From Alphaproteobacteria bacterium (GTDB taxonomy: Bacteria; Pseudomonadota; Alphaproteobacteria; Thalassobaculales; Thalassobaculaceae), in the NCBI GenBank assembly GCA_024742605.1, contig JANSYC010000013.1:1-64000 (forward strand): a DNA stretch of 64,000 nucleotides, read 5' to 3'. A program made the translations under genes and the position numbers. Below the pieces are notes generated by a model. It was not told where the DNA came from. It was given only the letters and a program-made list of their open reading frames with translations, and made no database searches. Positions 1-25,989 of this stretch are shown piece after piece (position 1 is the stretch's first letter; the number at the start of each line of letters is the position of its first letter).

Positions 1-157
1 GCTTCAGCTTCCACCACATCATCTTCCACTGGGACGCCATGTAGTAGCGTTCCTGCTCCGGCGTCAGGACCTCGTCCCGCATCGGATCGAACGGCGCGGT
101 ATCGACGAAATGTCGGGCGCGACGCGGTTCCGAACTGCCTGGAGTGGTCGTGCTCAT
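1..157 (-). CDS. Peptide/nickel-type ABC transporter permease, OppC/DppC-like (partial, N-terminus only)
   Basis: This is the first 52 codons of a gene that continues past the left edge. The ATG at 157 overlaps the stop of the upstream permease gene in an ATGA junction, so the two are translationally coupled. The visible protein has a cytoplasmic leader of about 40 residues followed by a YYMASQWKMMWWKLK segment, which is how the second permease (OppC/DppC type) of this importer class begins just before its first membrane helix. The role, forming the inner-membrane channel with the neighbouring OppB-like subunit, is inferred from context and this N-terminus only. Confidence 0.75.
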   Translation of the reverse strand, partial: MSTTTPGSSEPRRARHFVDTAPFDPMRDEVLTPEQERYYMASQWKMMWWKLK

Positions 158-1152: not shown

Positions 1153-1159
1153 GTGGCGC

Positions 1160-3139: not shown

Positions 3140-5034
3140 GACGCCAGCTTCATGTTGAGAATGCGTTCGTCGGCCCGCACGAAATGCCCGTCGCCCATAT
3201 TCACCAGACGCGGCTCAAACCCATCGCCAATCGTGAACGGCGCCGCCCATTCCGACGGAATTGAACAGCGTTCATCCATCACACGCGCGAAATCCAGCGG
3301 ATTGTCCAGATTGGGATCCGGCACTGCGGCAAGGAGCGCCTGGGTATAGGGGTGGATCGGATTCCGGAACAATTCCTCGCGGGGTGCCAACTCGACCAGA
3401 CGCCCAGCGCACATCACCGCGATCCGGTCGGCGATGTAATCGACCACCGCCAGATTGTGGCTGATGAACATATAGGTCAGCCCCAGCTTGTCGCGCAGAT
3501 CCTTCAGCAGATTCAGGACCTGAGCCTGAATCGAGACGTCGAGCGCCGAGACCGGCTCGTCGCAGATCAGCAGACGCGGGCGCAGAGCCAACGCGCGGGC
3601 GATTCCGATCCGCTGCCGCTGGCCGCCCGAAAAGCTGTGCGGATACCGGTTCAGATGTCGGATATCCAGCCCCACCAGCCCCATCAGCTCGCTTACCATC
3701 TCGCGACGATAGGCGGCGTCACCGATCTTGTGGATCACCAACGGCTCGGAGATCAGGTCGAACACCGTCATCCGGGGATTCAGCGAGGAGAACGGGTCCT
3801 GGAACACGAACTGGATCTTACGCCGGAAGTCGATCAGCTTCTGGGCCTCAAGCGCCAGAACATCGACTTCGCCATCCTCGTCCCGATACGTCACGGAGCC
3901 GCTATCCGGTTGCAAGGCGCGCATCACGACCTTGGACAATGTGGTCTTACCGCAGCCGGACTCCCCCACCAGTCCAAGACACTCGCCACGCCGTATTGCG
4001 AACCCGACATCGTCGAGCGCCTGAACCTGATTGCGGGTCCCGCCGATCAGCCCGCTTTTCCGGATCGTGAAAGTCTTCGATAGCCCCGAGAGCTCCAGGA
4101 TCGGCTTGGCATCGGCGGCGTCCGGGCTCTGGTCGCGCCCGTCATCAGCCAACAGATGTCCGGTCCGCGGCTCGATCTCCCGGATCGGCTTCAACCGTTC
4201 GCCCGGCGGCATGTTGAAACGTGGCACCGCCCCCATCAAAGCCTTCAGATACGGATGCTGAGGGTTCCGGTAGATATCCTCCACATCGCCGGATTCCATG
4301 ACCCGGCCCCGGTACATCACGACTACCTCATCCGCCACGTTCGCCACCACTCCGAGATCATGGGTGATCATCAGAACGGCCATCTGCAGTTCCTGCTGCA
4401 AATCGCGCACCAGCTTGAGAATTTGCGCCTGGATGGTAACGTCGAGCGCCGTGGTCGGCTCATCCGCGATCAGCAGGGCCGGACGGCAGATCAGCGCCAT
4501 GGAAATCATGGCCCGTTGCCGCAATCCACCAGACAGCTCGAACGGATAGGTGCGCAAGGCACGCTGCGGATCCGGAAATCCAACCAGGCGAAGCATTTCG
4601 GCCGTCAGCTCGTCTGCTTCCCGACCGGAGACATTGCGATGCAGGGTGAGCGCCTCGCGGATCTGATTTCCGACGGTATGGAGCGGCGAGAGCGAGGTCA
4701 TCGGCTCCTGAAAAATAATCGAGATCCGCCCGCCCCGCAGACCCCGCATCTCCGCCCCGTTCGGCGACAGCCGCACGATATCGGTGATGGTCCCTGGCTT
4801 CTTCGGATCGGCAAAAAGGACCGATCCCCCAAACACCTTGGCCGACCGCGGCAGCAATCCCATGATGGTCTGGCTGATGACCGATTTGCCCGAGCCCGAC
4901 TCCCCGACCAAGGCGACTGTCGACCCGCGCTGTATCTGGAATGACACCCCGTCGACCGCGACCAGACGGCCCTCGGGAAGATCGAAACCCACCCGCAAGT
5001 CGTTGACTCGCAATAAAGGTGTCCGGTCGGCCAT
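3136..5034 (-). CDS. Fused dual-NBD ABC transporter ATP-binding protein (OppD-OppF type, GsiA/YejF-like)
   Basis: A 632-residue protein holding two complete ATPase domains. NBD1 has Walker A GESGSGKS (residues 44-51), an LSGGLRQR signature and Walker [17 protein letters not shown]2 has Walker [10 protein letters not shown] (about residue 358), the [15 protein letters not shown] signature and [12 protein letters not shown]. Each is followed by the oligopeptide C-terminal extension ([15 protein letters not shown] and [15 protein letters not shown]). It would energise both permeases as one polypeptide. The ATG directly abuts the stop of the upstream small membrane-protein gene. Confidence 0.93.
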
Positions 5035-5629: not shown

Positions 5630-6418
5630 TCACTGAATCCGATCCCCGTCCACCATACACAAGGCCGTCTCCGGACACACCCACCGACTGGCCGAATGTG
5701 ATGCGATCACGCGCCAAACCGGCGCCCAGGCCGACCAATCGTTCGGTCTTGTCACCAGATGATGGGATAGCACTCCCACCGCGCTGTCCAGCGGGTTTTC
5801 GGTGCCCGACGCAAGTTTGACCCATGGGACCAGGAGGTCGACCAGCCGCTCGGCCGAAAGCCCCTGTCTGGTACCGCGCCAGTCGATCAGATCCACATGG
5901 GTGTCGAGACGTGGGCGCGACGCGGATTGCGGCTCCCGGCCCGGCATACGATAAGCCGACACTCCGGCCGCCTTGCTCCGGTGCAGGTGAGGCAAGAGGT
6001 CGGTCGCGATATTGTTCCAGGGTGGGGTGAACACCAGCAATGCCCGCGTACCTGCCAACGCCGCGATCCGGTTGCAGGCGCCGTCGATCTCGGCAAGCCG
6101 CTCCTCGACCGCCCGCCTAGGGCCATACTCCGATTTCTTTGCACCAGCCGGTTCGTGATTAACGTGCCGCCACCCATGTGGCATAACGCGCGCTTGTGTG
6201 CCGTCGAGAGCGCTGATCGCCTCGGATTTCACAGCGCCGGATACCGCGGCCAGGCCCGGCGCGATGCCGCTGTCTTCGGTAGCGGTGAGCATTTCCGCGA
6301 GCGCCAGGCTCGGGATTTCCAAATCGTCATCCCGCCACCAGAAGGACAGAACCGGCGCGCCCGTCTCGGCCCGCCGGTCGAGGGCCTGTCTCAAACGCTG
6401 GATCGCGGCCGCGCTCAC
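5630..6418 (-). CDS. Polysaccharide-deacetylase-like protein
   Basis: A 262-residue protein with a GTG start overlapping the stop of the upstream glycosyltransferase (GTGA). The motif FWWRDDDLE near residue 26 matches the metal-binding DD region of the carbohydrate esterase 4 / NodB fold, and MPHGWRHVNHEP near residue 78 matches the H-x-H-type second motif. No signal peptide is visible, so action in the cytoplasm on a precursor glycan is plausible. As the last gene of the glycan operon it may trim or deacetylate a sugar added by its neighbours. The substrate is unknown. Confidence 0.7.
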   Translation of the reverse strand: MSAAAIQRLRQALDRRAETGAPVLSFWWRDDDLEIPSLALAEMLTATEDSGIAPGLAAVSGAVKSEAISALDGTQARVMPHGWRHVNHEPAGAKKSEYGPRRAVEERLAEIDGACNRIAALAGTRALLVFTPPWNNIATDLLPHLHRSKAAGVSAYRMPGREPQSASRPRLDTHVDLIDWRGTRQGLSAERLVDLLVPWVKLASGTENPLDSAVGVLSHHLVTRPNDWSAWAPVWRVIASHSASRWVCPETALCMVDGDRIQ

Positions 6419-7578
6419 CCGCTGCGACCCTCAATCAGGCGCCGGACCATCCTGGCGGTATTGGCGGCGCCGTCCAGATCCACCGGGGGGACCCTGTCCC
6501 GCGGCCGGTCATAGGCCGCACGCATCGCGGCTGTGAGAGTCGGAATGTCCAGCCGGTCCTCCGTCACCATCTCCAGCGCCCCGAGCCCAGTCAGAAGATC
6601 CGCACGCAAGCGCTGCTCGGTCTCGACCCCGCCCTCGAACGGCACCACGACCGACCGGGCGCGAACCGCAAGAAGCTCCAGCAGCGTGTTGTAGCCCGCC
6701 TGACTGATCGACAGGGCCGCATGCGCCATCAGGGCCGGAAGATCGGGGCGGCTGCGCTCGATGATCAGATTGGGGCGATCTAAGGCCCGCAACTTCACGA
6801 GAGTGGCCTCCGGCATGTGATGCCCGGCGATCAGCCGCCAGGTGCGGTCCCCCAGGGGCAGGTCCGGCATCATCTCGACCAGCCGGGTGACCAGGTCCGC
6901 GCCGACGGCCCCGCCGCCCGCCGAGATCAGCACCTCGCCGGTATCGCGCGGGTCCGCATCGGGGACTGAAACCTCCGGCATGTTCACGACATATCCGGTG
7001 TAGATCAGCCGGTCGCGAATTCCGTCCACCATCGGGAAGGTGCGGTCGAGCGTGATCAATTCGGGATCCGCATGGATCAAGGCATGGTCATAGAACGCTG
7101 AAAAGGTATCGACGATCTCCTGGTTCCGATCGGCGCGCGGTTTGGTCACCAGAATATCGCGCATCGAGGACAGCACGACCGGACGCGGGCGGGCGGCATT
7201 GGCCGCCTCCAGAAGCGGAATCAGCTCAAACCGCATCTGGCGGCGGCCGAACGGAAACAGCTCGGTGATCACTGCATCCGGACGGACATCGTGGAAGATC
7301 TCCAATAGGGCGCCCCGCCGACGCTCCCGGAACCCGTCGTCGATCGGCCGGTCCGCCTCGTCGACCAGCAGTTTGAAGTCATTGTCTCGGGTGCGCACCG
7401 GCGGCAACTGCATCCATTCCGATCCACCCACCGGCAGATTCGGCACCGGCATGCCGCCGGTCACGAATGCGACCTTCATGCCGGCGGAATCCAGGGCACG
7501 CGCCACCGCGGCCGCGCGTCGGAGATGTCCGATCCCGAGCAAGTTCTGAACGTAGAGCAGGATGCGCGGTGCGGTCAT
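6415..7578 (-). CDS. Glycosyltransferase, MurG-like (GT28-type C-terminal domain)
   Basis: A 387-residue GT-B fold protein. The N-terminal Rossmann half begins RILLYVQNLLGIGHLRRA, with the GxGHxRR loop typical of MurG-like and related transferases. The C-terminal half has an SAGGGAVG donor loop (about residue 255) and ALSISQAGYNTLLELLAVRA (about residue 300), the nucleotide-sugar-binding signature of GT28-type enzymes. It overlaps both neighbours by 4 bp. A second protein of the same type is encoded at 10541-11776 and shares the GxGHLRR motif, so the operon has two paralogous steps. Donor and acceptor cannot be read from sequence. Confidence 0.85.
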   Translation of the reverse strand: MTAPRILLYVQNLLGIGHLRRAAAVARALDSAGMKVAFVTGGMPVPNLPVGGSEWMQLPPVRTRDNDFKLLVDEADRPIDDGFRERRRGALLEIFHDVRPDAVITELFPFGRRQMRFELIPLLEAANAARPRPVVLSSMRDILVTKPRADRNQEIVDTFSAFYDHALIHADPELITLDRTFPMVDGIRDRLIYTGYVVNMPEVSVPDADPRDTGEVLISAGGGAVGADLVTRLVEMMPDLPLGDRTWRLIAGHHMPEATLVKLRALDRPNLIIERSRPDLPALMAHAALSISQAGYNTLLELLAVRARSVVVPFEGGVETEQRLRADLLTGLGALEMVTEDRLDIPTLTAAMRAAYDRPRDRVPPVDLDGAANTARMVRRLIEGRSG

Positions 7579-8156
7579 GAAGTCCGGTCCAGGCTGATAT
7601 TGGGGCGGTCCAGGGAAACACTGCCATCCGCATCGAGTTGGAACAGATGGGCCGATGACCAGTCAAGCTTCACCGGAGGCTTCCCGATCATATCCCAACC
7701 GCTCGCACGCGCCATCAGAGCGCGGATCACACCCTTATGCGTGACGCAGCCGGTCGGGCGACGGATCTCGGCCAGCATCGGACACAGCCGGTCCTGAACC
7801 ATGCGCGGACTTTCGCCGTCTGGCGGGGTGAAGTCGAGACCCCGGTCCTCATTCGCGCTCATCTCGGCGCCAAGCCGGCGACGCAATTCACCGATAGTGC
7901 GGCCTTCATACATGCCGAAATCCATCTCGATCAGACGCGGGTCGACCGTTGCGGCAAGCCCGAGCGCTTCAGCCGTCTGACGGGCGCGCTGCAATGGGCT
8001 GACCCGCCAGTCGAACCCGACGAACTCCTCCGGCACCTGCCATCCGGACACCTGGCTAAGGCCCGACTCGGACAAGGGAATATCGGTGCGGCCCTGCAAA
8101 CGCTTTTCTGTATTCCAGGTGGTCGGCCCATGTCGGATCAGAAGCAGAGGTATCAT
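7575..8156 (-). CDS. Histidine phosphatase family protein (phosphoglycerate-mutase-like)
   Basis: A 193-residue cytoplasmic protein beginning IPLLLIRHGPTTWNTEKRLQ, the RHG phosphohistidine motif of the histidine phosphatase superfamily. LSESG and PLQRARQTAEALG follow at the expected spacing, and a late CVTHKGVIRAL supplies the second catalytic His. ATGA overlaps on both sides place it inside the glycosyltransferase operon. A sugar-phosphate or phosphoglycerate-sugar intermediate made by the neighbouring transferases is a reasonable substrate; this is inferred from position only. Confidence 0.88.
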   Translation of the reverse strand: MIPLLLIRHGPTTWNTEKRLQGRTDIPLSESGLSQVSGWQVPEEFVGFDWRVSPLQRARQTAEALGLAATVDPRLIEMDFGMYEGRTIGELRRRLGAEMSANEDRGLDFTPPDGESPRMVQDRLCPMLAEIRRPTGCVTHKGVIRALMARASGWDMIGKPPVKLDWSSAHLFQLDADGSVSLDRPNISLDRTS

Positions 8157-9247
8157 GGAACCAGCTCCCGAAATGCAGTGTCCAGAGCGACGGCCGCCGC
8201 CGTCAGGCCATGCTCCGCGACGACGATACGGGCGGCGTTGCCCCCCATCTCGCAGACCCGACCCGGCGACCGGATCAGCAGCTCCAGCCGGGCGGCGAGC
8301 GCTTCTGCATCCCCTTCCGGTGCCAGAAGGCCGGTCACCCCATCCCTGACAATGTCCGGCACCCCGCCGGCATCTCCCGCGACAGCGGCAAGGCCATGGG
8401 CCTGCGCTTCCAGTAGCGCCATTCCGTATGCTTCCCGGATTGCCGGCCAGACGAAGAGATCGTGCTGACGGTACGCATCCGCCAGGGCACTTGCGTCAAG
8501 AGCGCCGGTCAGCGTCACCCGTGCTCCGAACGGAGCGAAGGCCGCGGCAATCCGGGCCCGCATGGGTCCGTCTCCGACTAGGGTCAGCTGCCAATCGTCC
8601 GTTTCCAAGAGAGTCAGGACTTCGGCCAGTTTGAGATAGGAGCTGGTCTTGTCGCCCTGGCGCATCATGCCGACCGCCAAAAAGCGGAGCCGGCCGGGCG
8701 CGCGCGCATCGCGCGACGGGATGCCGGAGAGATCCAGAAAAGGCCTCAAGTGCAGGTAGCGCGCTGCAGGCTTCAGGGTCGGCGCGACAAGGCGCCGGTC
8801 CCGGCTGTTCAGGCCGATTACGAGATCCGCCCGCGAAAGCGCCTCCAGCGTGGCCCGATGCCCAGCATCCCAGGGCCCACCGGCCCGTTTGTGGGCCACC
8901 GACGCCTCCGCGATCACGTACGGCACATCCAAGGCATCAGCCACCGAGGGCCCGATCCAGTCGGGCGCCTTGTAATAGACGTGATAGGTGAACCAGAGGT
9001 CCGGTCTCGGTCGCCGTCCGGAGCGGACGCTTTCCACATACCGCGCCGCCAGCCGCTGTCCGATATCCCGCAGACGAAATTGCCGTGCGGGATCCCCGCC
9101 GCCATCGCGGCTCCGAAACCGGGTCGCCAATTCCACCTCATGTCCGGCCTCGCGCATCGCCTGACTCAGCAACCGCGCCATGGTCCGGTCGCCGGACGGC
9201 GTCGGCGCATCGGGCGGTTTCAACGGCGCGTGAAAGGCGATCCGCAT
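8153..9247 (-). CDS. Glycosyltransferase family 4 protein
   Basis: A GT-B glycosyltransferase of 364 residues from the ATG at 9247 (an in-frame ATG at 9271 lies inside the previous gene and would add eight poorly conserved residues). The start MRIAFHAPLKPPDAPTPSGD has the usual acceptor-side glycine loop. The C-terminal half shows RLRFLAVGMMRQGDKTS and the EX7E-type donor motif EAYGMALLEAQAHGLAAVAG around residue 280. The stop overlaps the histidine phosphatase start. It probably adds one sugar in an extracellular or outer-membrane glycan pathway. Confidence 0.88.
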   Translation of the reverse strand: MRIAFHAPLKPPDAPTPSGDRTMARLLSQAMREAGHEVELATRFRSRDGGGDPARQFRLRDIGQRLAARYVESVRSGRRPRPDLWFTYHVYYKAPDWIGPSVADALDVPYVIAEASVAHKRAGGPWDAGHRATLEALSRADLVIGLNSRDRRLVAPTLKPAARYLHLRPFLDLSGIPSRDARAPGRLRFLAVGMMRQGDKTSSYLKLAEVLTLLETDDWQLTLVGDGPMRARIAAAFAPFGARVTLTGALDASALADAYRQHDLFVWPAIREAYGMALLEAQAHGLAAVAGDAGGVPDIVRDGVTGLLAPEGDAEALAARLELLIRSPGRVCEMGGNAARIVVAEHGLTAAAVALDTAFRELVP

Positions 9248-9260
9248 GGCACCACTCGGG

Positions 9261-10541
9261 CTAGGCGGCACGGGCGTCGGCCTGCACCCCGAACCGGGCC
9301 GCCAAATCGTCGATCCCGGTTTCCGGGCCGAATTCCGACAAGACCCGGACCCGACCGGCTGCCCCCAAGCGCAGACGCTCCGTCGGATTGCAGATCAGAC
9401 GTTCCAGGGACGCCGCCAAGGCGGCGCTGTCCTGGGGCGGGACCAACAGACCTGTATGGCCGTCCGTCACCAGTTCCGGGATGGCGGACACGTCGGTTGA
9501 AAGGACGGGAAGCGCCATCGCCTGCGCCTCCATCAGTACGTTCGGCAGTCCATCCCGGTCCCCACTGGCGGCGACACGGCTGGCCAGGACGAACAGATCG
9601 CCCTCCTGCAGCGCCGACACCACCTCGGAGCGCGGCCGTGCGCCACGCCAGTCGACCGAACCGGACAGCCCCAGGCGTTCGGCATGGTCCGATAATTCTC
9701 GCTTCAACTCCCCGCCGCCGATATGCACCAGCCGCCACGACAGCGCCTTCGGCAACAGCGCCAGTGCGTCGAGCAGCACGTCGTAGCCCTTCTTCTCGAC
9801 CGCCCGACCGATCGAAACCAGCACGACCGGGTCCATCGGATCGCTGCCATCCTTGGCCGGCCGCTGGGGCGGGAGCGGAAAGTCTCTGGTATCGAGACCG
9901 TGGTAAAGCAGTGCCACCCGATCATCGCTCGGTGCCAGCCCGGCCAGATGGTCGCGGCCGATGGCGGTGCAGGTCACGCACCAGGACATTTCCGCCAGTT
10001 TTTCGCGCTTTTCCCAGTCCGGCGTGGTCCAGATGTCCTTGGCATGGGCGGATACCGACCAGGGCAGGCCGCGCATGATCGCGGCATATCGTGTGACCGA
10101 GGCCGGGGTGTGCAGGAAGTGCGCGTAGAGCGACCGGTATTCGGCCCCCAGCTCGGCGGCAAGTACGCAGGCCTGGCCGAACCGTCGCCCCCGGTTCGGG
10201 GTCGGGTCCCGCGCCAGATCCCGGCGCCAGGCCGCAAAGGCGGCAGCATATCCGGGCAGGTGTCGGGCGATGCGCCACCCGCGCCAGACACGGGCAGGCT
10301 CGTCGCGCAGATACTCGGGAAGATAGTCAACCGGTGCGCTGATCGCCGCATGGACGGGATGGGTGACTTTGTCGGTCGGGTGCCGAAGCGAGATGATGCG
10401 AAACGCCACCCCACGCTCCTGCAAGCCGAGAAGTTCCTGCGCGATGAAGGTCTCGGAAAGTCGCGGATAGCCCTTCAGGACGATCGCAACCGGACCGGTC
10501 GGCAGCGCCCTTTCCGGTCTCACGCCGTCGACCTCCACCAT
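9261..10541 (-). CDS. Glycosyltransferase family 4 protein
   Basis: A 426-residue GT4 protein. I start it at the ATG at 10541, which forms a TGATG junction with the upstream stop; the longer open frame reaching 10757 only adds residues lying inside the upstream gene. The protein begins MVEVDGVRPERALPTGPVAI, then VLKGYPRLSETFIAQEL, a common opening in this family. It carries VLVSIGRAVEKKGYDVLLDAL and the donor motif GLPNVLMEAQAMALPVLSTD near the C-terminus. It is the second gene of the six-gene glycan operon. Confidence 0.9.
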   Translation of the reverse strand: MVEVDGVRPERALPTGPVAIVLKGYPRLSETFIAQELLGLQERGVAFRIISLRHPTDKVTHPVHAAISAPVDYLPEYLRDEPARVWRGWRIARHLPGYAAAFAAWRRDLARDPTPNRGRRFGQACVLAAELGAEYRSLYAHFLHTPASVTRYAAIMRGLPWSVSAHAKDIWTTPDWEKREKLAEMSWCVTCTAIGRDHLAGLAPSDDRVALLYHGLDTRDFPLPPQRPAKDGSDPMDPVVLVSIGRAVEKKGYDVLLDALALLPKALSWRLVHIGGGELKRELSDHAERLGLSGSVDWRGARPRSEVVSALQEGDLFVLASRVAASGDRDGLPNVLMEAQAMALPVLSTDVSAIPELVTDGHTGLLVPPQDSAALAASLERLICNPTERLRLGAAGRVRVLSEFGPETGIDDLAARFGVQADARAA

Positions 10542-11776
10542 CACGCCGGTCGACGGAACGGTACGGTGCCGGAGGATTCTCTGACCGTCTTCTGCAAGTG
10601 ATTCCGGACAAAGCTCTGGACGTTCTCCAACCCGCCCAGCAGGTCGACATTGGAGGCTTCGGACGGGCGTTTCCGGCTCGGCAGGAGGCGCAGCGCCTCG
10701 GCCATCGCGCGGGGGGACCGATCCCCGTCGTCGACCAGCATGCCTAAAAGTCCCCATTCCTCGGCCTTCTTGGCTCGAATGTACTGCTCCAGCCGTGGCT
10801 CGGTCCGCGGCACGATCAGCGCCCGCTTGTCGAAGGACAGAATCTCGCAGAACGTATTGTAGCCTCCCATCGCCACGATCCCAGCACAGCGCGACATCAG
10901 CGCCTCGATCCGGCTGTCGAAGGTGATGGCATGCACCCGGTCAAGCCGGGAGGCGCGATCCATGAACTCCGTCTGCTGCTCGTAGGGCATGAACGGGCCA
11001 AGCACCAACAGGGCGGGATATGGCAGTTCCGAATCGTGCTCGTAGGCGCGCAGCACCCAATCCATCACCGGCTCCCCATCACCGCCGCCGCCCGCGGTGA
11101 CCAGCAGGAACGGATCGTCGGCAAACGGAATATTGGGCTTCGGCGCCGGTGTGCTGGACGCTTCCCGCCGCAGATAGCCGGTGTATCGCATCTTCGAGCG
11201 CACCGAGGCCGGAATACTCAAACCGTCCAGCGGGTCGCAGATCTCCTCCCGGCCATAGACCCAGATCTCATCATAAAGATCGCGCAGTGCCGGCAGGACC
11301 TTCTTGCGTTCCCATTCGGGAGCCAGAGCCGCCGGCTCGTCCATCACATCCCGTAGACCGAGCACAAGCGGCGTGCCGCGCTCCTTAAGCATCAGAAGGG
11401 TGTCGCGGACCTCGCCCCGGAGACCCAGAGGCTCCTTGTCCACGATGAAAAGGTCCGGGTCGAACGCCTCGGCGGTGTGATTGATGATCGAGGACCGCAG
11501 ATTGACGGTGTCCTCCACATCCATGTGCAGCGACAAAGACGTGTAGTCGCCGTTCCGCAGCTTGATAACCCCCGGCACCCGGACGAAATCGACCCGTGTC
11601 CGGAAATCGAAACTGCCGATGATCGGCGAGCCCGAAATGATCAGAACGCTCACATCGGGGTCCATCTCGACCAGCGAATGGGCAATGGCCCGACATCGCC
11701 GCAAATGGCCGAGGCCGAGCGTGTCGTGACTGTACATCAGGATGCGCCCGTTCCGATGAGCTCGGGAGTTTGCCAT
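10541..11776 (-). CDS. Glycosyltransferase, MurG-like (first gene of glycan operon)
   Basis: A 411-residue protein paralogous to the 6415-7578 product. RILMYSHDTLGLGHLRRCRA holds the GxGHLRR loop, LVTAGGGGDGEPV is the C-terminal nucleotide-sugar loop (about residue 232), and IVAMGGYNTFCEILSFDKRA (about residue 310) is the donor-binding signature. It is the promoter-proximal gene: a 252 bp spacer separates it from the divergent ABC-like gene at 12029. It likely acts in the cytoplasm on a lipid- or protein-linked acceptor. The exact glycan is not known. Confidence 0.85.
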   Translation of the reverse strand: MANSRAHRNGRILMYSHDTLGLGHLRRCRAIAHSLVEMDPDVSVLIISGSPIIGSFDFRTRVDFVRVPGVIKLRNGDYTSLSLHMDVEDTVNLRSSIINHTAEAFDPDLFIVDKEPLGLRGEVRDTLLMLKERGTPLVLGLRDVMDEPAALAPEWERKKVLPALRDLYDEIWVYGREEICDPLDGLSIPASVRSKMRYTGYLRREASSTPAPKPNIPFADDPFLLVTAGGGGDGEPVMDWVLRAYEHDSELPYPALLVLGPFMPYEQQTEFMDRASRLDRVHAITFDSRIEALMSRCAGIVAMGGYNTFCEILSFDKRALIVPRTEPRLEQYIRAKKAEEWGLLGMLVDDGDRSPRAMAEALRLLPSRKRPSEASNVDLLGGLENVQSFVRNHLQKTVRESSGTVPFRRPA

Positions 11777-12028: not shown

Positions 12029-14686
12029 ATGGACTCCACGATCTATCGCTTCATCTTCCGCCACAGCAAGAAAGAGCAGATTCTGCTCCTGGTGCTGACG
12101 GCGTTCTCGTTTCCCTTCCTGTACTATTCGCTCGATCTGCCCAAACGCATCATCAATGAGGCCCTAGGGGCCAAAGGCAGTCCGGAGTTTCCGGTCACCA
12201 TGCTGGGGGTCGAACTGACCCAGTTGCAGTTCCTTTGGACCCTGTCCGGAATCTTTCTGGCCCTGGTCTGCATCAACGGCGCTTTCAAATACTATATCAA
12301 CGTGTTCCGCGGGCAGCTCGGAGAGCGGATGCTGCGCCGCCTGCGCTACGATCTGTACGCCCGGGTCCTTCGCTTTCCTCTTCCCCATTTCCGAAAGGTC
12401 AGCCAGGGCGAGATCATTCCGATGATCACCGCCGAAGTGGAGCCGCTGGGCGGCTTCATCGGCGACGCGTTGGCTTTGCCCGCCTTTCAGGGCGGCACCT
12501 TGCTGACCATCCTGATGTTCATGTTCATCCAGGATCCGATCCTCGGGCTGGCCGCGATCTCGCTCTATCCGGTCCAGGGCTACATCATACCGAAGCTGCA
12601 ACGGCAGGTGAACCTGCTCGGCAAGGAACGGGTGAAGGCGGTCCGCGTGCTTTCGGACCGGATCGGCGAGAACATCAGCGGGGTCGAGACGATCCATGCG
12701 AACGACGGCGCCCGATATGCGCTGGCCTGGTTCGGCTACCGACTGGGCCGGATCTACGACATCCGGTTCAATATCTATCGGCGCAAATTCTTCATCAAGT
12801 TCCTGAACAATTTCCTCGGCCAACTGACACCATTCTTCTTCTACGCGATCGGCGGCTATCTGGTGATTGCCGGCAGTCTGAGCCTCGGTGCGCTGGTCGC
12901 GGTTCTGGCCGCCTACAAAGACCTGTCGGCACCGTGGAAGGAGCTGCTGAACTACTACCAGCGCAAGGAAGATGCCCGCATCAAGTACGAGCAGGTGATC
13001 GAGCAGTTCGACGTTCCGGAGATGATGACGGAAGAGCAGCAACTGAGCGATATCGATCCGGATATCCGGCTGGATGGTGCCTTGCGGGTCAACAATCTCG
13101 GTCTGGTCGATGACGAAGGCGATATGTTGCTGGACGGGGTCAATCTGAAGGCGGACCCGGGTGAGAAGATCGCATTGGTGGGCCCGGCGGGAGCCGGAAA
13201 GGAAAGCCTGATCATGCTGCTGGCGCGGCTGCAACAGCCGACCACCGGTCAGATCACCATCGGCGGGATCGATCTCAGCCAACAGCCTGAGGCCCTGACC
13301 GGGCGTCGCATCGGCTATGTCGGCCCGAGCGCCTTCGTTTTCTCGTCGACCATTCGCGAGAATCTCCTGCTCGGCGCCAAACACCAACCGCTCGGCCCAT
13401 CCGATCGGACCGATGGCGACACCGCGGCGATGACCAAGGACTTGGAGAATGCCGCCAAGTCGGGCAACTCCACCGACGATCCTGACGCCGATTGGGTCGA
13501 CTACGCGGCAATCGGCGTCGGTGACCCGTCCGATCTGCCTGGCAGGCTGACCGAACTCCTGGCAGCGGTCGATCTGTCGGAGGACTGTTACGTTCTGGGT
13601 ATTCGCGGCACCATCGATCCGGACAAGGCGAGCGAGACGGCAACCCGGATTCTTGCGGCACGCCAGGCCTTTCAGGATCGGCTCGGAGAGAAGAGCGACC
13701 TGTCGGAACTTGTCGAACCCTTCGCGATCGACCGCTACAACATGAATGCGACCGTGGCCGAAAATCTGTTGTTCGGAACGCCAGTGGGCCAGCAATTCGA
13801 TGCTGCGGGCATCGCCACCCACCCTTACGTTCGTGAGGTTCTGGATCGGCAGGACCTGACCGGGGCGTTCGTGGAGATGGGTCGAAACATCGCCTCGACC
13901 ATGGTGGAGCTGTTTGCCGATCTGCCCCCGGATCACGAGTTCTTCGCCCAGTTCAGCTTCATCTCGCCCGACGATCTGCCGGATTTCCAAACCCTGATCA
14001 CCCGTGTAGAGCGGCAGGGCCTGGAAAAGCTGTCGGAGGAGGATCGCGGCAAGCTCTTGGCTTTGCCGTTCAAGATCATCCCGGCGCGTCATCGTCTCGG
14101 CATGATCGACGACGACATGACCGCACGGCTTCTCAAGGCCCGACAGGACTTCGCCGAGAATCTGCCCGAAAACCTGAAGGAGTTCGTCGCGTTCTTCCGG
14201 TCCGATGCCTACAACGCGGCGGCCTCGCTTCAGGACAACATCCTGTTCGGTAAGATCGCCTACGGGCAGGCGAACGCAGGGGAGCGGGTCGGTCAGGAGA
14301 TCTCGAACGTTCTTACGGAACTCGGGCTGCGGGACACTGTGATCGAGGTCGGGTTGGACTTCGGAGTCGGAATAGCGGGGTCGCGCCTCTCCGGCCAGCA
14401 GCGCCAGAAGGTCGGGATCGCCAGGGTTCTTCTGCGGCGGCCGGATCTGTTGATTATGAACGACGCGACAGCCTCCCTCGACGGCGCCTCGCAGGAGCAT
14501 GTGATCCGGGAGGTGCTCAGAAGCGCCGAAGGACGGACCGTGATTTGGGGAACCCAGCGGAGCGAATTGGCAAGCCGCTTCGACCGGGTGCTGTTCATGC
14601 GCGGGGGACGGATTCTCGAAGACGGGACACCGGAAGAGTTGAACAAGGACGGAACCGCCTTTTACGCGTTCCTGAACCAGAGCTGA
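12029..14686 (+). CDS. ABC-exporter-like membrane protein with degenerate ATPase motifs and a large insertion in the NBD
   Basis: 885 residues from the ATG at 12029 (MDSTIYRFIFRHSKKEQ); an upstream in-frame ATG at 11957 adds an unconvincing leader. An N-terminal type-1 exporter membrane domain (about residues 20-330) precedes one nucleotide-binding domain. By eye the NBD reads GPAGAGKES for Walker A (385-393; Glu where Ser/Thr is expected), IGYVGPSAFVF at the Q-loop (Pro for Gln), LSGQQRQ as signature (787-793), LLIMNDATASLD for Walker B (Asn for Asp, Asp for catalytic Glu) and GTQRSEL at the H-loop (Gln for His). Walker A and the signature are about 395 residues apart instead of about 110. 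STIRENLLLG (440-449), ATVAENLLFG (574-583) and ASLQDNILFG (732-741) are three versions of one motif. It heads a unit with the CNBD and methyltransferase genes. It may be regulatory or a non-canonical pump; substrate unknown. Confidence 0.88.
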   Translation: MDSTIYRFIFRHSKKEQILLLVLTAFSFPFLYYSLDLPKRIINEALGAKGSPEFPVTMLGVELTQLQFLWTLSGIFLALVCINGAFKYYINVFRGQLGERMLRRLRYDLYARVLRFPLPHFRKVSQGEIIPMITAEVEPLGGFIGDALALPAFQGGTLLTILMFMFIQDPILGLAAISLYPVQGYIIPKLQRQVNLLGKERVKAVRVLSDRIGENISGVETIHANDGARYALAWFGYRLGRIYDIRFNIYRRKFFIKFLNNFLGQLTPFFFYAIGGYLVIAGSLSLGALVAVLAAYKDLSAPWKELLNYYQRKEDARIKYEQVIEQFDVPEMMTEEQQLSDIDPDIRLDGALRVNNLGLVDDEGDMLLDGVNLKADPGEKIALVGPAGAGKESLIMLLARLQQPTTGQITIGGIDLSQQPEALTGRRIGYVGPSAFVFSSTIRENLLLGAKHQPLGPSDRTDGDTAAMTKDLENAAKSGNSTDDPDADWVDYAAIGVGDPSDLPGRLTELLAAVDLSEDCYVLGIRGTIDPDKASETATRILAARQAFQDRLGEKSDLSELVEPFAIDRYNMNATVAENLLFGTPVGQQFDAAGIATHPYVREVLDRQDLTGAFVEMGRNIASTMVELFADLPPDHEFFAQFSFISPDDLPDFQTLITRVERQGLEKLSEEDRGKLLALPFKIIPARHRLGMIDDDMTARLLKARQDFAENLPENLKEFVAFFRSDAYNAAASLQDNILFGKIAYGQANAGERVGQEISNVLTELGLRDTVIEVGLDFGVGIAGSRLSGQQRQKVGIARVLLRRPDLLIMNDATASLDGASQEHVIREVLRSAEGRTVIWGTQRSELASRFDRVLFMRGGRILEDGTPEELNKDGTAFYAFLNQS

Positions 14687-14764: not shown

Positions 14765-15223
14765 ATGAGCCTGCAGGAGGAAGTCGAGCTGCTTCGGAAC
14801 ATCCCGTTGTTCCGCAAGATCGAGCCGTCGAAGTTGAAGCTTCTGGCGTTCACCTCCGAGCGTCTGACCTTCCAGGACGGCCATCGTCTGTTCGCACAAG
14901 GCGACGCCGGCGACGCCGCCTACATCATCATCGACGGCACCGCCGAGGTGAAGATCGACACTGACGGTGGTGAAATCACGGTCGCCAGCCTGGGGAAGGG
15001 CGACGTGGTCGGAGAAATCGCCATCCTCTGCGACGTCCCCCGCACCGCCTCGGTCGACGCACAGACCAAGGTCGTGACCCTGAAGATCACCAAGGAGCTG
15101 TTCTTCAGGCTGATCAGCGAGTTTCCGCAGATTTCCATCGAAATCATGCGCGAGCTGGCCGCCCGTCTGGAACGCACCAATACCCAGTTGCGCGAAGCCC
15201 TGTCGCGGAGCTCGAATTCGTGA
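14765..15223 (+). CDS. Cyclic nucleotide-binding domain protein (stand-alone CNBD)
   Basis: A 152-residue protein that is essentially one cNMP-binding beta-roll. LFRKIEPSKLKLLAF, LFAQGDAGDAAYIIIDGTAE and the phosphate-binding-cassette-like VGEIAILCDVPRTASV (about residues 80-95) follow in canonical order, ending in a helical tail (IMRELAARLERTNTQL). There is no DNA-binding helix-turn-helix, unlike Crp/Fnr. It lies 78 bp after the ABC-like gene, and its stop overlaps the methyltransferase start. It may sense a nucleotide and control the upstream membrane protein; this is inferred from adjacency. Confidence 0.9.
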   Translation: MSLQEEVELLRNIPLFRKIEPSKLKLLAFTSERLTFQDGHRLFAQGDAGDAAYIIIDGTAEVKIDTDGGEITVASLGKGDVVGEIAILCDVPRTASVDAQTKVVTLKITKELFFRLISEFPQISIEIMRELAARLERTNTQLREALSRSSNS

Positions 15224-15708
15224 GTCGTTTGGACAGCGGAATACGGCGCCTTCTGGCGCAGAAACATGCCCTCGAAGACGCGGCGACCAGAATTTCCCGG
15301 CTCTCCGGTTGCGTAATGGAGTTCGGCCTGGGCAACGGTCGAACCTACGATCACCTGCGGGAGATTCTGCCCGACCGACAGATCTACGTCTTCGATCGAC
15401 AGATCGCGGTTCACCCGGATTGTGAGCCGCCCGCCGACCGGATGTTCCTTGGCGATCTGTTCGAGACATTGCCCCAAGCGGTTTCCCGGCTCGCTGGACA
15501 GGCCGCCATGATCCATCTGGATATCGGCACCGGCGACAAGGACGCCAGCGTGACGCTCGTCGCGCGCGCGGCACCGGATCTGGTCCGGCTGCTAAAGACG
15601 GGGGGAGTCGTGGTCAGCGACCAGCCCGTCGATCACCCCTCACTCGCGCCGCTTGAGCTGCCGAAAGGTGTGAAACCGGGGCGCATCCATATGGCCGTTC
15701 GGCTCTAG
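15220..15708 (+). CDS. Small class I SAM-dependent methyltransferase-like protein
   Basis: 162 residues from a GTG start overlapping the CNBD stop (GTGA), so translation is coupled. Motif I reads VMEFGLGNGRTYDHLRE (about residues 32-48), followed by IYVFDR as the acidic strand-2 end that would hold the SAM ribose, and MIHLDIGTGDKD as strand 4. The protein is shorter than most free-standing methyltransferases (200 or more residues) and has little room for a substrate domain. The target is unknown. It ends 26 bp before the convergent RTX gene. Confidence 0.82.
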   Translation: MSRLDSGIRRLLAQKHALEDAATRISRLSGCVMEFGLGNGRTYDHLREILPDRQIYVFDRQIAVHPDCEPPADRMFLGDLFETLPQAVSRLAGQAAMIHLDIGTGDKDASVTLVARAAPDLVRLLKTGGVVVSDQPVDHPSLAPLELPKGVKPGRIHMAVRL

Positions 15709-15734: not shown

Positions 15735-18700
15735 CTAGATCAGTTGCCACTGATCGTTGATCGCGGCGACCTGAGCGATGTCGAGCGGCTGTGTGCCGGA
15801 GAAATCGATCACGTTGAGCGAATTGTCGGCCGTGCTGCGCATTACCATCTCTTCGCTTCCGTCGCCATTGGTGTCGGCGATCCGCGCCAATTCCCAGCTG
15901 TCGTCAACGGTGAAGGATGAGCCGAAGGTTGGGCTGGACGTTCCATTGGTCTCCCAGACGGCAAACCTGTTGGTTCCGTTTCTCAGGAGGATGTCGTCGG
16001 TCCCGTCCCCATTGAAGTCACCCGTCTGCACGATCTCCCAGGCGCTCGGCAAGGCGATGCTGGAACCGAAGCTCGGCGTATCGACCCCATTCATACCCCA
16101 CAAGGCGACCCGGCCGTCATCGCTGTTGCGCCACAGCAGATCGTCAGCACCATCGCCGTCAAAATCGTCCGTCTGCTCAAGCTGCCAGCTCTTGCTCAGC
16201 CCGATCGAGGACCCGTAGGTCGGTGTGCCGGCCCCATCCATTTCCCAAACAGCCAACCGTCCGGTAACGGAATTCCGCATCAGCAGATCGGCAGCCTCGT
16301 CGTCGGTATCCAACTTGCCGACATGGAGAATTTCCCAGTCGTTCGACACCGCGATCGACGCTCCGAAGGTCGGTCCGCCGCTGTCGTTCATTTCCCAGAC
16401 CGCGATCCGACCATCACTGTTGCGGACCAAGATGTCCGCGATCCCGTCGCCGCTCAGATCCTCTATCGTGTTGATCGACCAGCCTGTCGGGATCCCGATC
16501 GAGGATCCGTAGGAGATATCGTTCGGATCATCGATATCCCAGACCACGATTCGCTTCGAAGCCGCGTTGTACAGCAACAGTTCGTCGCTGGCGTCGGCAT
16601 CGAAGTTTTCGGTCGCCAGGGTGGTCCATCCGGACGGTGCGGCGAAGGCGTTGCCGAACGCCGGCGCGTCCGCGTCATTGGTCTCCCAGATCGCGAACAT
16701 CTGACCGTTGCGCCACAGAATGTCTTCCGAGCCGTCTCCATCGAAGTCAGCGACAGCGTCGACCTGCCAACCGGCCCCGAGACTGAACGACGTTCCGCCG
16801 TCGACTCCGCCCAATCCGTCATACCGGATCAGGGACACCTTGTCGGCCGCGTCGTCGAACAGAATCTCCAACGGACCGGCGGCACCGGTCACCGCGTTGG
16901 CCTCGACCACGCTTTCGATTCCGCTCACGGTCATGGAGAGCAGATCCGCATGACTGTTGACCGTCAGCACATCGGTGCCCGCGCCACCCACCACGGTGTC
17001 GCCCGACCCGGCCACGATTGCATCGTCACCGTCTCCGCCGGAGATCTGGTCGCGACCGGCACCGCCGATCAGCGAGTCATCGCCAATCCCTCCGAGCAGC
17101 GTATCGGCACCGTCGGCACCGTAGAGCGTGTCGTTTCCGTCACCGCCCAGAAGGCTGTCACTGCCGGCCTGGCCATCGATCGAGTCCGCGCCACCGAGGC
17201 CCAGCACCGTATCGTCACCACCCAGCGCCAGAATCGTGTCGCCAAGGGTTGTTCCGCTGACAAGGTCGGCGTTCTCGGTCACAACCAGGGTCTTGAAGAG
17301 AAGATCACCGCTCGTCGTGCGGATCTCTTCGATTCCGTCATAGGTGCCACCGAGCACCGTGTCGGTCACATAGGCGATATCGTAGCCTTCGCCACCGGAC
17401 AGGGTGTCCTCGGTCAGGTTGCCGTACAGCACATCGTTGCCGGCGCCGCCGATCAGCAGATCGTTCCCGGCGCCGCCGGAGAGCACGTCGTCTCCGGCAT
17501 TGCCGTTCAACGTCTCGTTTCCGCCGACACCGACCAGCGTATCCGAGCCCAGGCTGCCTATCAGGGTGGCGACCGTTGCACCCGGAACCAACATCTGGCC
17601 TGCGGTCAACGTCTGCCCTGCGGTCAAAGCATAGAGACCGTGCCCGAACGGGCCGGGGCCACTCAATGAACCAGACGGGTCAGTTGCGTAGAGTTGCTCG
17701 AAACCCCGCGTGTTCCCGGTGTTCCAGACATCCGTAAGGAAGCTTTCGACGTCAGACGTGTCTTCGGAGACCAGAAGATCCGTCCCGATACCGCCCTCCA
17801 GTGAGACCGATGCGAAGCCGGAGTTGGTGGGATCGACCGCAAATACCGTGTCGTTACCGGCGCCGGCGTCGATCACCTTCGCAAGTGACATTTTGCTCTG
17901 ATCAAATTCGTCGGGTTGGTAGATCCCGATCACATCGTCGCCATCTCCGCCGCTCAGCGTATCAACGTACTGGCCGCTTGCCACGAGCGTATCGTTTCCG
18001 GCGCCGCCGATCAGCAAACTGCCGGGCGGGATACCGTTCAGATGGGTGCTGACCAACAGATCGTCGCCGTCCCCACCGTCCAGCGTATCAAGCCCATTGA
18101 TCGACGAGAGGGTGTCGTCACCCGCGCCGCCGTAGAGCGTACTGTCACCCAGCCCGGCCGTGAGATGGTCATTACCGCCTTCGCCATAGACCAGATGCCC
18201 ACCCGGCAGCGAGCCGTCTAAATCGAGGCTGCCCACATAGGCGGTATCGGACCCATCACCGCCGTAGATCGTCGAGGATCCGTCTGAATAAGTGAGACCG
18301 TCGTAGTTCTGATCGGGGTCGGGGCCAAAGATGTCGTTTCCGGCACCGCCCGACAGGACGTCACTGCCGTCACCCATCACGAAGATGTCGTCACCGTAGC
18401 CGCCGCTGGCCGAACCCCCGCTGCCGCCTATGAGCGAATCATCGCCGTCTCCACCGATCGCCTGATCGCCTTCGCCGAAGAGATAGATCGTGTCGTTGCC
18501 GGCACCGCCAGACAATGTGTCGAAGCCAACGGCGCCCTGGATCGAGTCATCCCCGTCGCCGCCAGACACCTCACTGCTTCCCCATGTCGAAAACAGCGAG
18601 TCGTTGCCGCCAAAGCCGACGAGCGTGTCGCCTGCTTCAAATGTCCCGAGCAGATCGTCGCCCTCGGTCCCCAGAATACGGGGATCGGAGGTGTAGAGCC

Positions 18701-21700
18701 GTTCTCCGGTGGTGGTCGACCAGATCTCCTCGATCCCGTCATAGCTTCCGCCCAGAACCGTGTCGGTCACATAGGCGATGTCATGGCCCTCACCACCGGA
18801 CAGGGTGTCCTCGGTCAGATTGCCGTACAGGATATCGTTGCCAGAGCCGCCGGACATCAGGTCCGCGCCCTCGCCACCGGTCAGCACGTCTTCGCCTATT
18901 CCACCGACCAGCGTGTCCGCTCCGGCTCCACCTGACAACACGTCGTTGCCGGCACCTCCGCTCAGCAGATCGGCGCCCGGCAGACTCACGATCGGTGTGA
19001 CCGTCAGCCCGCTAATCTGGTAGTCGCTGCTGTCGTTGGTCGCGGTCTGGCTTTCGGCTCCACCATATGGGGTGGCCGTGAAGATCAGCTTGTCAAAAGA
19101 TACGCCGGGTTCGATCGACACGGTCGCGGTCGATCCGCCACCCTCCGCAAAGATATTGGCCTCTCCCACCAGAGTGCCACCGCTGTAGGCCGCCCAATGG
19201 CCGACTTCGCCGCCAGCGCCCTCGCTCGCGAACAAGCGCGTGACACTCACCGACGCAGCGCTGGCCTGGGCGTCCAGTTCGACGATCAGCTCTTCGGACA
19301 GCCCGTTCGCGGCATCATAGCCGAGCTGTACCGACGGGCCCCCGGTGTTTCCTTCGACGCCGATCTCGCTTCCTGCCGTAGAGACATTCTCGACACTCGC
19401 CTCGGAGAGCAGTCCCCCGACGATCGAGCGACCGAGGACCGCATAGCCGCTGTCGGTCGCCGAATAGTTCGAGCCATCGATGGTGAACGGATCCCCGGTG
19501 CCGCCCGACCCACCATCCCCGATCAGGGTGTCGTCGCCCGCACCGCCGGACAGCACGTCGTTGCCGCCCGCGCCGGTCAGTTGATCGTTGCCGTCGCCGC
19601 CGATCAACCGCTCGCGGCCTCCGGTTCCGACCAATGTGTCATCGCCGTCGGTGCCCTGGATCAGGAAGGGGTTCTCGAACCCGTCGCTCGACAGATACTC
19701 CAGATCAGCGTCCTGGCCGCCCGCGGCCTTGGTCGCCGATTCGTCGCGGCCGTTCATCTCGTAGCTGACGACCATCGTGCCGCTATCGGCTTCGGTCCAG
19801 AAATACGTCGTTCCCGGCTCCGCCGTGTAAGCGCCCTCTTGCGGGTCGCTGGCCCCGTAGAGATCGGCGGTAAAGTCGACCGCCTCATCGTTCGGGTTGA
19901 TCACCCGCCAGATGTGTTCGTTGTCGCCGTCGCCGTCCAGATCCGCGACCCCCATCGAGGTCAGGGTCAGCTCTTCGAGGGCGTAGCCCAGATCATCAAC
20001 GGTCCAGCCGCCGCTGCTGTCCGCGGACAGGGCGTCCATCGGGACATCGCCTTCGACCGCGAGCGTGTATTCGGATCCGCCCACATCAAAGGTGAAAGTG
20101 GTGACGCCATCCTCAACCAGACGGGTAACTGTTGCACCAGTGAGGTCGACGCCATCCAGCGCGATCGTGTCGCCGGTTTCGAAATCCGAGATCTCGGCCT
20201 GATCCGAAAGATCCATGATAAAGGTATCGGCACCTGCGCCACCCACAAGCACGTCGCCGGCACCACCGGATAGATTGTCCTTGCCGGAACCGCCGGACAG
20301 AGTGTCGAATCCGGCGCCACCGCTCAGGGTGTCGTCACCGGACCCGCCGCCCAGGATGTCGTTGCCCGCGCCGCCGACCAGCAGATCGTTGTCGCCACCG
20401 CCGGCCAGCGTGTCGTCGCCCTCACCCCCGAAGACCACGTCGTCGCCTGCGTCGCCGGCCAGAAGATCGTTTCCGGTCGCACCGGACAGGCTGTCGGCCC
20501 CCGCGCCGCCGCTCAATCCGTCGTCGCCGTCGCTCCCGCTCAGCACATCGTCCCCGGTGCCGCCGGACAGCACGTCGTTTCCGCCGCCGCCGATCAGGGT
20601 GTCGTTGCCGTCACCTCCGAGAACCAGATCGCTTTCACCGTCACCCTGAAGCGTGTCGTCACCGCCGCCGCCGGCCAGCGTATCGGCATCGGCGCCGCCG
20701 AACAGTGCGTCGGCACCTGCACCACCGGACAGAAGATCGGTTCCCGAACCACCGGACAACACATCGTCGCCTAGGAAGCCGAGAAGGGTGTCGCTGCCGC
20801 CGCCGCCCGCCAGGGTCTCTGAGCCGCCGGCCCCATTGATCAGATTGTCGTTTTCGTTGCCACCAATCGCGATATCGCCCGCCAACGCGGTCAGAGTGTC
20901 AAGACCGTCGGTTCCCTCGATTTCAACATCGTAGAGGACGACGCTATCGCCACCGGTGTCTTGAACAACGACGTCCAGACCATCGCCGCCGTAAATCGTA
21001 TCGTTACCGCCGCCGTTCGTGAACGTGTCGTTTCCGGCACCGCCGGACAGAATGTCGTCGCCGGTCCCGCTGCTGAGACTGTCGGCCCCGTCGCCGCCGA
21101 GCAGAGTGTCACCGCCGTCGCCGCCGGACAGGTCGTCCGCGCCGGCCCCGCCGTCGAGCAGATCATTGCCCAAGCCACCGGTCAGCGTGTCGCTGTCTGC
21201 GCCACCTGAAATCGTATCGTTGTCCACGCCGCCGTCGAGCACGTCATTGCCGGATCCACCGGTCAGCACGTCGTCACCCGCGCCACCCGCGCCGGTGTCG
21301 TTACCCGAGCCGCCATCCAGAACGTCATTGCCGGACCCACCGGACAAGGCGTCATCGTCTTCACCACCCGCGACAGTATCGTCACCGGCGCCGCCGTCGA
21401 GCACATCTGCACCCAAGCCGCCGCTCAATGTGTCGTTGCCGCCGCCACCGGTACCGGTATCGTTGCCCGAACCGCCATCCAGAAGATCGTTCCCGGTCCC
21501 GCCGGACAGGTCGTCATCGGCATCGCCGCCGGACAGCATGTCGTCACCGGCATCGCCATCGAGCACATCAGCGCCCGAGCCACCGCTCAATGTGTCGTTG
21601 CCGTCGCCACCGCTTGCCGTATCGTCACCGGCCCCACCAGCCAGAACATCGTTTCCGGCACCGCCCGTCAGCGCATCGTCACCCGATCCGCCGAGCACCG

Positions 21701-25103: not shown

Positions 25104-25388
25104 TTACACTCTCCCAGGATGGTTTTTAACCGAGTTTCAGCAGTTTGTGAAGCTCGAATCGAATTTTCTTCATATTTTAGGTAATCCAAATTTACTCGCG
25201 TTTCGATGTAGTTAGGCTCTCCACATTCAGATATTGGGCCGAAATTCGCGGGCTGCATTGACGATTTGTTTCACATCTCAAATCACATTCTCCACGGCGA
25301 ATTCGGCACCGCTCGGCAAGCAAGGATCTTCCCACCTGCACGCACACGCGCTACACGACCAATACCCAACAACCCCACATGTGCTGTC
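25104..25388. promoter_or_regulatory. Divergent AT-rich spacer between the RTX gene and gmhA
   Basis: This 285 bp spacer is visibly more AT-rich than its surroundings between about 25130 and 25250 and must contain promoters for both directions. The CTCTCCC at 25109-25115 is the reverse complement of the RTX ribosome binding site. I see no further convincing element. Confidence 0.5.
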
Positions 25389-25976
25389 ATGAACCTGAAC
25401 GCCTTCTTCGAGTCCGAGTTGGACGAACACCTCACCGTCACAAGCAAGACCCGGGCCACCATGTCCGAACCCTTTGCCGCGCTTGTTGCCCTGACCGCCG
25501 GGGTCGTGCGGGCCGGCGGCAAGATCATGCTGTTCGGAAACGGTGGAAGTGCTGCCGACGCGCACAACATCGCGACAGAGTTCGCCGTGCGCTACAAAAC
25601 CGACCGGGCGGCCATTCCGGCGATCGGCCTGACCACGGATGGCGGCGTGCTGACGGCGATCGGCAATGATTTCGGCTTCGAGCACGTTTTCGCGCGGCAG
25701 ATCGAGGCTTTGGGGAAACCCGGCGATCTTGCGATCGGGATCTCAACATCCGGCCGTTCGCCCAACGTGCTGGAAGGCCTGAAGACCGCCCGCAGCATGG
25801 ATATTCGGACCGCCGCATTCGGTGGCGGCACCGGTGGCGACATGGTCGAGCTGGTCGATCTCGCCTTGATCGTTCCGTCCAAGACGACCGCGCGCATTCA
25901 GGAAATGCACATCCTGCTCGGCCAGATGCTGTGCGGCGCGGTCGAGGTCGAACTCGGGCTGGTCCCAGCGCCCTAA
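25389..25976 (+). CDS. gmhA: Phosphoheptose (sedoheptulose-7-phosphate) isomerase GmhA
   Basis: 195 residues from the ATG at 25389 (MNLNAFFESELDEH); a longer frame from 25266 adds an unrelated leader. It converts sedoheptulose 7-phosphate to D-glycero-D-manno-heptose 7-phosphate in the cytoplasm, the first step to ADP-heptose for LPS core. The SIS-domain signatures are clear: LFGNGGSAADAHNIATEF (about residues 53-70) and GISTSGRSPNVLEGL (about 117-131). It lies 13 bp before hldE, which encodes the next steps, so both form one operon. Confidence 0.95.
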   Translation: MNLNAFFESELDEHLTVTSKTRATMSEPFAALVALTAGVVRAGGKIMLFGNGGSAADAHNIATEFAVRYKTDRAAIPAIGLTTDGGVLTAIGNDFGFEHVFARQIEALGKPGDLAIGISTSGRSPNVLEGLKTARSMDIRTAAFGGGTGGDMVELVDLALIVPSKTTARIQEMHILLGQMLCGAVEVELGLVPAP

Positions 25977-25989
25977 CTCAGGACAAGAC

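Follow-up and report, generated by a model that had tools for sequence, protein, structure and literature searches.

The window, which is the whole 64,000-nucleotide stretch of DNA analysed here, encodes an ABC-exporter-like protein in which the ATP site is broken; this result is well supported, and the damage is more extensive than was first noted. In the family to which the protein belongs the ABC fold is retained, whereas the ATP pocket has been taken apart and made acidic, with an acidic residue at the A-loop position and another in place of the Mg-binding Ser/Thr of Walker A. The reading preferred here, in which we place about as much belief as doubt, is that of an ABC-fold transporter independent of ATP hydrolysis and situated at a conserved glycan locus, in which the pseudo-NBD and a cyclic-nucleotide (cNMP)-binding protein would serve control and not power. 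The evidence is set out below, followed by the other explanations considered and a comparison with known systems.

Gene and motif assignment

The open reading frame at 12029-14686 on the forward strand begins with an ATG at 12029, ends with a stop codon at 14684-14686 and specifies 885 residues. Its start matches the starts of homologues, which read MEPTIYRF or MESTIFRF, and the coordinates given in the preliminary description are correct. The exporter transmembrane domain (TMD; PF00664) and the NBD (PF00005) lie in one chain, both above the curated Pfam cut-offs, and the ABC_tran match to the NBD is split. The gene and the nucleotide-site motifs were assigned as follows.

12029..14686, + strand: coding sequence of the pseudo-ABC exporter (open reading frame and homologue starts; Pfam ABC_membrane 73.6 bits, ABC_tran 81.1 bits)
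13109..13114, + strand: A-loop position, D361-D362 where an aromatic residue is expected
13181..13207, + strand: degenerate Walker A GPAGAGKES (G385-PAGAG-K391-E392-S393), with E392 for Ser/Thr
13310..13342, + strand: first Q-loop copy IGYVGPSAFVF, with P433 at the Gln position
14381..14401, + strand: signature SRLSGQQ, the second Gly of LSGGQ being gone
14441..14464, + strand: Walker B region PDLLIMND, with N811 for Asp and D812 for the catalytic Glu
14549..14563, + strand: H-loop GTQRS, with Q843 for His

The preliminary description had listed five degenerate positions, and its readings at the Walker A Ser/Thr, the Q-loop Gln, the Walker B Asp, the catalytic Glu and the H-loop His were all confirmed. 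Five was nevertheless an undercount, as the A-loop aromatic residue is lost too, and so is the signature's second Gly. Of the elements that it had reported as remaining, the Walker A Lys is indeed present (K391), but the LSG signature is broken, reading LSGQQ. The motif set of a functional ATPase is altered throughout in the window protein, that is, at the A-loop, Walker A, Q-loop, signature, Walker B, catalytic Glu and H-loop. In canonical exporters encoded by the window's own genome the motifs are intact in every case in which the P-loop or Walker B could be recovered (GK[ST][ST] in five; DE together with AHR or SHR in six).

Conservation of the motif losses and selection on the family

Family counts were made on 81 representatives at 70% identity, drawn from 117 distinct homologues of many genera. 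At most four of the six catalytic residues are kept in every one of the 81 representatives, and 18/81 keep none of the six. The Walker A Lys is kept in 42/81 (Lys or Arg in 66/81), position 392 is Ser/Thr in 6/81 and Asp/Glu in 60/81, and the K+[S/T] pair of Walker A is kept in only 2/81. The Q-loop Gln is found in 10/81, the Walker B Asp in 18/81 (with Asn instead in 46/81), the catalytic Glu in 33/81 and the H-loop His in 16/81. No representative (0/81) has GG in the signature; A-loop position 361 is aromatic in 0/81 and Asp/Glu in 76/81; and the D-loop residue Asp818 is kept in 66/81. Members from G057, G188 and G363 are without a recognisable P-loop, and the G057 protein (L069) has no Pfam ABC_tran match at all. 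Three related records (L111-L113) retain GKS and the Walker B DE, so that nucleotide binding may survive in places, and the frequencies of Lys or Arg in Walker A and of the catalytic Glu likewise make nucleotide binding possible in some members.

Homologues were checked for canonical residues at these sites, and the canonical set was present in 0/81 representatives; the same changes recur among the 117 homologues. At the level of sequence, these counts support the earlier proposal that ATP hydrolysis by a homodimer would be poor or absent.

When eight close pairs were compared by codon, dN/dS was ~0.04-0.10 between the window gene and its sister in every domain, the NBD included. Values were similar (0.04-0.10) in most other pairs and higher (0.19-0.37) in the L117/L118 pair. 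By this measure the NBD is under purifying selection despite the loss of its catalytic residues. Near-invariant columns numbered 62, with 40 in the TMD, 15 in the insertion described below and 6 in the NBD core, the last six all being non-catalytic, and on this distribution selective constraint is shifted away from the ATP site.

Insertion, internal repeats and structure models

Overlooked in the preliminary account of the motifs was a family-specific insertion of ~295 residues, which carries two extra copies of one segment. It separates the first Q-loop copy from the signature. The segment from Q-loop to signature is present as three copies, each of which starts at the Q-loop, includes ENLLFG and extends as far as the helix that precedes the signature, and the insertion adds two of them.

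13394..14278, + strand: family-specific insertion, residues ~456-750 (profile A1; mostly helical in the model)
13298..13672, + strand: repeat copy 1, residues 424-548 (hhalign)
13670..14128, + strand: repeat copy 2, residues 548-700 (hhalign; E 1e-14 against copy 3)
14126..14443, + strand: repeat copy 3, residues 700-805, reaching into the signature (hhalign)

The hhalign probabilities were 98.3 for copies 2 and 3, 93.3 for copies 1 and 2 and 89.7 for copies 1 and 3, with controls at or below 12.9, the E-values being pairwise and without database calibration. In predicted models, which are shallow (six sequences, mean pLDDT 60-61), the ABC core is intact and resembles the NBDs of TAP1, HlyB and ComA, isolated exporter NBDs being matched at TMt 0.75-0.81. 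The models also match full ABC exporters, and the insertion is modelled as helical at low-to-moderate confidence.

Distribution

Profile A1 matched 131 of the 385 sampled Alphaproteobacteria genomes, or 118 of the 315 of good quality, and a strong full-length match was obtained in 33 of 61 close relatives. Matches in a phylum-level sample were confined to Alphaproteobacteria, other proteobacterial classes not being clearly represented in that sample, and there were none in 146 genomes from the phylum of a Nostocaceae record or in 149 from the phylum of a Nonomuraea record. Strong matches were found on 331 plasmid records, mostly of Rhizobium and Sinorhizobium, and these plasmid copies, where annotated, are designated ABC transporter ATP-binding or transmembrane proteins. 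The pSymB copy of S. meliloti 1021 (L185:13685-16436, at ~842 kb) occupies two frames, so that gene decay occurs in places; other S. meliloti strains match the full 904 residues.

Glycan locus and cyclic-nucleotide-binding partner

The pseudo-ABC gene is flanked on one side by a divergent glycan cluster and on the other by a short operon continuation, as listed here.

5630..11776, - strand: glycan cluster, divergent from the pseudo-ABC gene (Pfam; order conserved across genera)
14765..15223, + strand: cyclic-nucleotide-binding domain (cNBD) protein, 152 residues (PF00027, 74.1 bits)
15011..15049, + strand: phosphate-binding cassette GEIAILCDVPRTA, intact
15220..15708, + strand: SAM methyltransferase, 162 residues (PF12692, 173 bits), with a 4-bp overlap with the cNBD gene

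The glycan cluster comprises genes for two GT28-like proteins (411 and 387 residues), two GT4 proteins (498 and 372 residues), a histidine phosphatase (193 residues) and a deacetylase-like protein (262 residues), the last of which has no Pfam match. Most family loci are divergent from this conserved glycosyltransferase cluster, and gene order is kept in the nearest genomes. GT28 was found in at least 58 of 87 loci; because the locus stretches are ~15 kb, counts of neighbouring genes are minima. Beyond the glycan cluster, at 157-5034 (- strand), the window carries an Opp-type importer consisting of a permease, an SBP_bac_5 protein and a 632-residue double ATPase, and a similar importer set adjoins the glycan cluster in R. 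johnstonii 3841. The R. johnstonii family locus may include pRL110056, which has been reported as required for root colonisation (PMC11103875), but this gene is given no weight in the argument. At 25266-27474 (+ strand) the window also contains SIS-domain and PfkB/cytidylyltransferase genes that resemble the ADP-heptose pathway (GmhA, HldE).

The cNBD gene starts 78 bp downstream of the pseudo-ABC gene. A cNBD was present in 82 of 87 loci, in 70 as an adjacent downstream gene on the same strand and in 12 fused to the exporter C-terminus; the fused members group together on quick trees, and the fusion was thus probably a single event. The phosphate-binding cassette keeps its Glu in 74/81 and its Arg in 80/81. 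With the cassette intact, the cyclic-nucleotide site survives although the ATP site does not, and the 152-residue protein, in which no DNA-binding domain was found, is likely a cyclic-nucleotide sensor. Matches of the cNBD and NBD to an anti-phage library were put down to shared domains only.

The SAM methyltransferase (PF12692) follows in 37 of 87 loci. A cyclase-like gene was seen in 6 of 87 loci, counted in the fetched stretches, and additionally at the R. johnstonii locus, where a gene with an adenylate/guanylate cyclase domain (strain 3841, L186:2646-3989) neighbours the cNBD and pseudo-ABC genes. Immediately after the operon in the window, and convergent with it, comes the gene for a 3122-residue protein that contains 57 stretches of RTX calcium-binding repeats (15735-25103, - strand).

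Transmembrane domain and NBD-less relatives

The TMD is the best-conserved part of the family, with a mean pairwise identity of 0.49 vs 0.34-0.38 elsewhere in the protein.

12029..13003, + strand: ABC-exporter TMD, residues 1-325 (PF00664)
12335..12439, + strand: ICL1, coupling-helix-1 region, residues 103-137
12626..12772, + strand: ICL2, coupling-helix-2 region, residues 200-248
12917..12922, + strand: TM6 pair Lys297-Asp298 (Lys/Arg in 75/81, Asp/Glu in 76/81)

The TM6 Lys-Asp pair is near-invariant in the family and was not present in the canonical exporters examined. A search with the TMD alone, from which 18 further stretches were added, recovered NBD-less open reading frames of 328-425 residues. 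Proteins of this kind (L188, L189-L203, L070-L072; ~314-413 residues) occur in at least 19 genomes, with ABC_membrane as the only Pfam match. Most of them fall into a group of their own, with 27-34% identity. The near relatives L188, L070/L071 and L189 have 44-49% identity and keep the TM6 pair; on quick trees such near TMD-only relatives fall at a poorly resolved node with long branches, so that the NBD may have been lost once or several times. L188 (G356, 2194-3231) is divergent from the same glycosyltransferase cluster and 345 residues long, with unrelated genes after it; neither an NBD nor the insertion nor a cNBD was detectable near it at this syntenic locus. In two relatives of Nisaea (L070:6608-7849 and L071:6540-7781) the TMD-only gene stands beside multicopper-oxidase-like and copper-binding-like genes, a setting unlike the glycan cluster.

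ICL1 and ICL2 have 35 and 49 residues, respectively, in all 76 full-length members, whereas in 19 TMD-only proteins they range over 28-39 and 35-55 residues. These fixed lengths in the one set and variable lengths in the other suggest that full-length members still engage the NBD mechanically and that this constraint no longer acts on TMD-only members.

Proposed mechanism and alternatives

Under the preferred reading, a half-transporter of the homodimer type of ABC exporter would have turned into a pseudo-ATPase. Its TMD would move a glycan or glycolipid from the divergent cluster without ATP hydrolysis, either downhill or coupled to ions. The pseudo-NBD and its extra helical repeats would form a control module that works by way of the coupling helices and that docks or gates when the cNBD protein has bound a nucleotide. 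A broader version is offered tentatively, as one that we would sooner doubt than adopt: the family would represent widespread ABC-fold exporters that work without ATP hydrolysis, are gated by a cyclic nucleotide acting via a pseudo-NBD whose helical subdomain is triplicated, and are transitional towards an NBD-less secondary transporter or channel. Since some relatives have no ATP domain, the pump may have been caught in the course of switching its power source or its control.

The preliminary description had also suggested a sensor or scaffold. This is strengthened by the near-universal cNMP-binding neighbour or fusion and its intact ligand site, and a transport role was nonetheless kept as likelier because the TMD is the best-conserved part. 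In its full form the alternative would make the protein a membrane scaffold or receptor that is no longer a transporter and that anchors glycosyltransferases or relays a cNMP signal to them. The dead ATP site, the cNBD partner and the linkage to glycan enzymes all fit such a role, as would the analogy of the sulphonylurea receptors, ABC proteins that regulate channels (PMC7756269). The distribution of conservation does not: the invariant residues occur throughout the TMD and include the TM6 Lys-Asp pair, and a version without NBD or cNBD persists at a syntenic locus, which is unexpected for a pure cNMP relay. We regard a pure scaffold or receptor as doubtful, though it is the alternative to be taken most seriously.

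Alternatively, the NBDs might bind ATP without hydrolysing it and so form an ATP-binding switch, like the degenerate site of heterodimeric exporters. Such a switch seems unlikely for the family, given that acid replaces the A-loop aromatic residue and the Walker A Ser/Thr in most representatives and that the P-loop is missing altogether from several members. Known cases, moreover, keep one canonical site per pair (PMC7756269), and here every chain is degenerate. Its strongest points are the frequent retention of Lys or Arg at position 391 and of the D-loop Asp818, the intact ABC fold and the three records with GKS and DE.

Pairing with a canonical half-transporter encoded elsewhere in the genome, which would supply the working site, was the third suggestion of the preliminary description, which placed the gene for the other half beyond the window. 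Known exporters include pairs of one degenerate and one canonical half-transporter (PMC7756269), and the window's genome encodes other exporters, but a search of that genome, to which the genome-wide partner search was applied, returned no other full-length family exporter: the next exporter scored 75-77 bits vs 1974 for the protein itself, and the only closer paralogue, at 112 bits, is a TMD-only protein. In the conserved glycan clusters, where sampled loci were judged on identified genes and without a general exporter profile, no second exporter was identified, the nearby ABC genes being importers. Some chains lack the P-loop or the entire NBD, as the G356 relative does. We consider a heterodimer of this kind improbable. 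An artefact of misalignment, sequencing error or pseudogene decay, to which the split S. meliloti 1021 copy might seem to point, is scarcely credible in view of the same substitutions in 117 distinct homologues, the strong purifying selection on all domains and the conserved synteny.

Comparison with known systems

With the type IV-fold ABC exporters (MsbA, Sav1866, TM287/288 and PCAT1) the family shares the TMD and NBD folds, the domain order and the coupling-helix motifs. It differs from them in that the ATP site of every chain is degenerate and in having the ~295-residue insertion, the two extra helical repeats and a separate or fused cNMP-binding subunit. Assignment to the MsbA lipid A flippase was rejected, TIGR02203 scoring 203 bits, below its cut-off of 602. 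Nor is the family the S. meliloti MsbA2 (SMb21191), an MsbA-like exporter whose gene also lies on pSymB beside glycosyltransferases and is needed for symbiosis: its operon is at ~938 kb (PMC3687685), and the family member of strain 1021 is at ~842 kb.

Heterodimeric exporters (TAP, TmrAB, TM287/288, BmrCD and CFTR) likewise have a degenerate Walker B Glu and H-loop, and in the degenerate exporters that have been reviewed the pair retains one canonical site (PMC7756269). For the present family no canonical partner chain was found, and the degeneracy reaches the A-loop, Walker A and the signature. Degeneracy in ABC exporters is known as that of one site of a pair, and degeneracy of all chains under strong selection was not found described in the open-licence literature searched, nor was any paper on the pseudo-ABC family. 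The family covers about one third of the sampled Alphaproteobacteria, including Rhizobium and Sinorhizobium.

A tie between an ABC exporter and a cNBD-type ligand domain needed for function is known from HetC, in which that domain is N-terminal and binds ppGpp (PMC10986499), and HetC is thus a precedent for control of an ABC exporter by such a domain. HetC has a C39 peptidase and a needed catalytic ATPase residue, whereas in the family described here the cNBD is separate or C-terminal and the ATPase is dead. The cNMP-binding partner would be a new form of control, and one that can be tested.

The proton-driven transporter SbmA has the ABC fold and has been proposed to derive from a full-length ABC transporter by loss of the NBD (PMC13316013); it is a precedent for transport on this fold in the absence of an NBD. 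In SbmA/BacA-like peptide transporters (SLiPT) an exporter TMD works without ATP, and the present family shows both dead-NBD and NBD-less forms. Unlike SbmA/BacA, the window protein has both an NBD and coupling helices; loss or erosion of these is confined to the TMD-only relatives. Membership of the SbmA/BacA family was rejected, as PF05992 did not match the window protein and its best score among the NBD-less relatives (L189, 14.6 bits) was below the cut-off of 24. The window family thus lies outside the SbmA family, although it looks like an intermediate on the way to NBD-less transporters of the SbmA kind, and because its members grade from near-intact forms through P-loop-less to NBD-less ones, the proposed origin of SbmA-type secondary transporters from ABC exporters becomes open to experiment.
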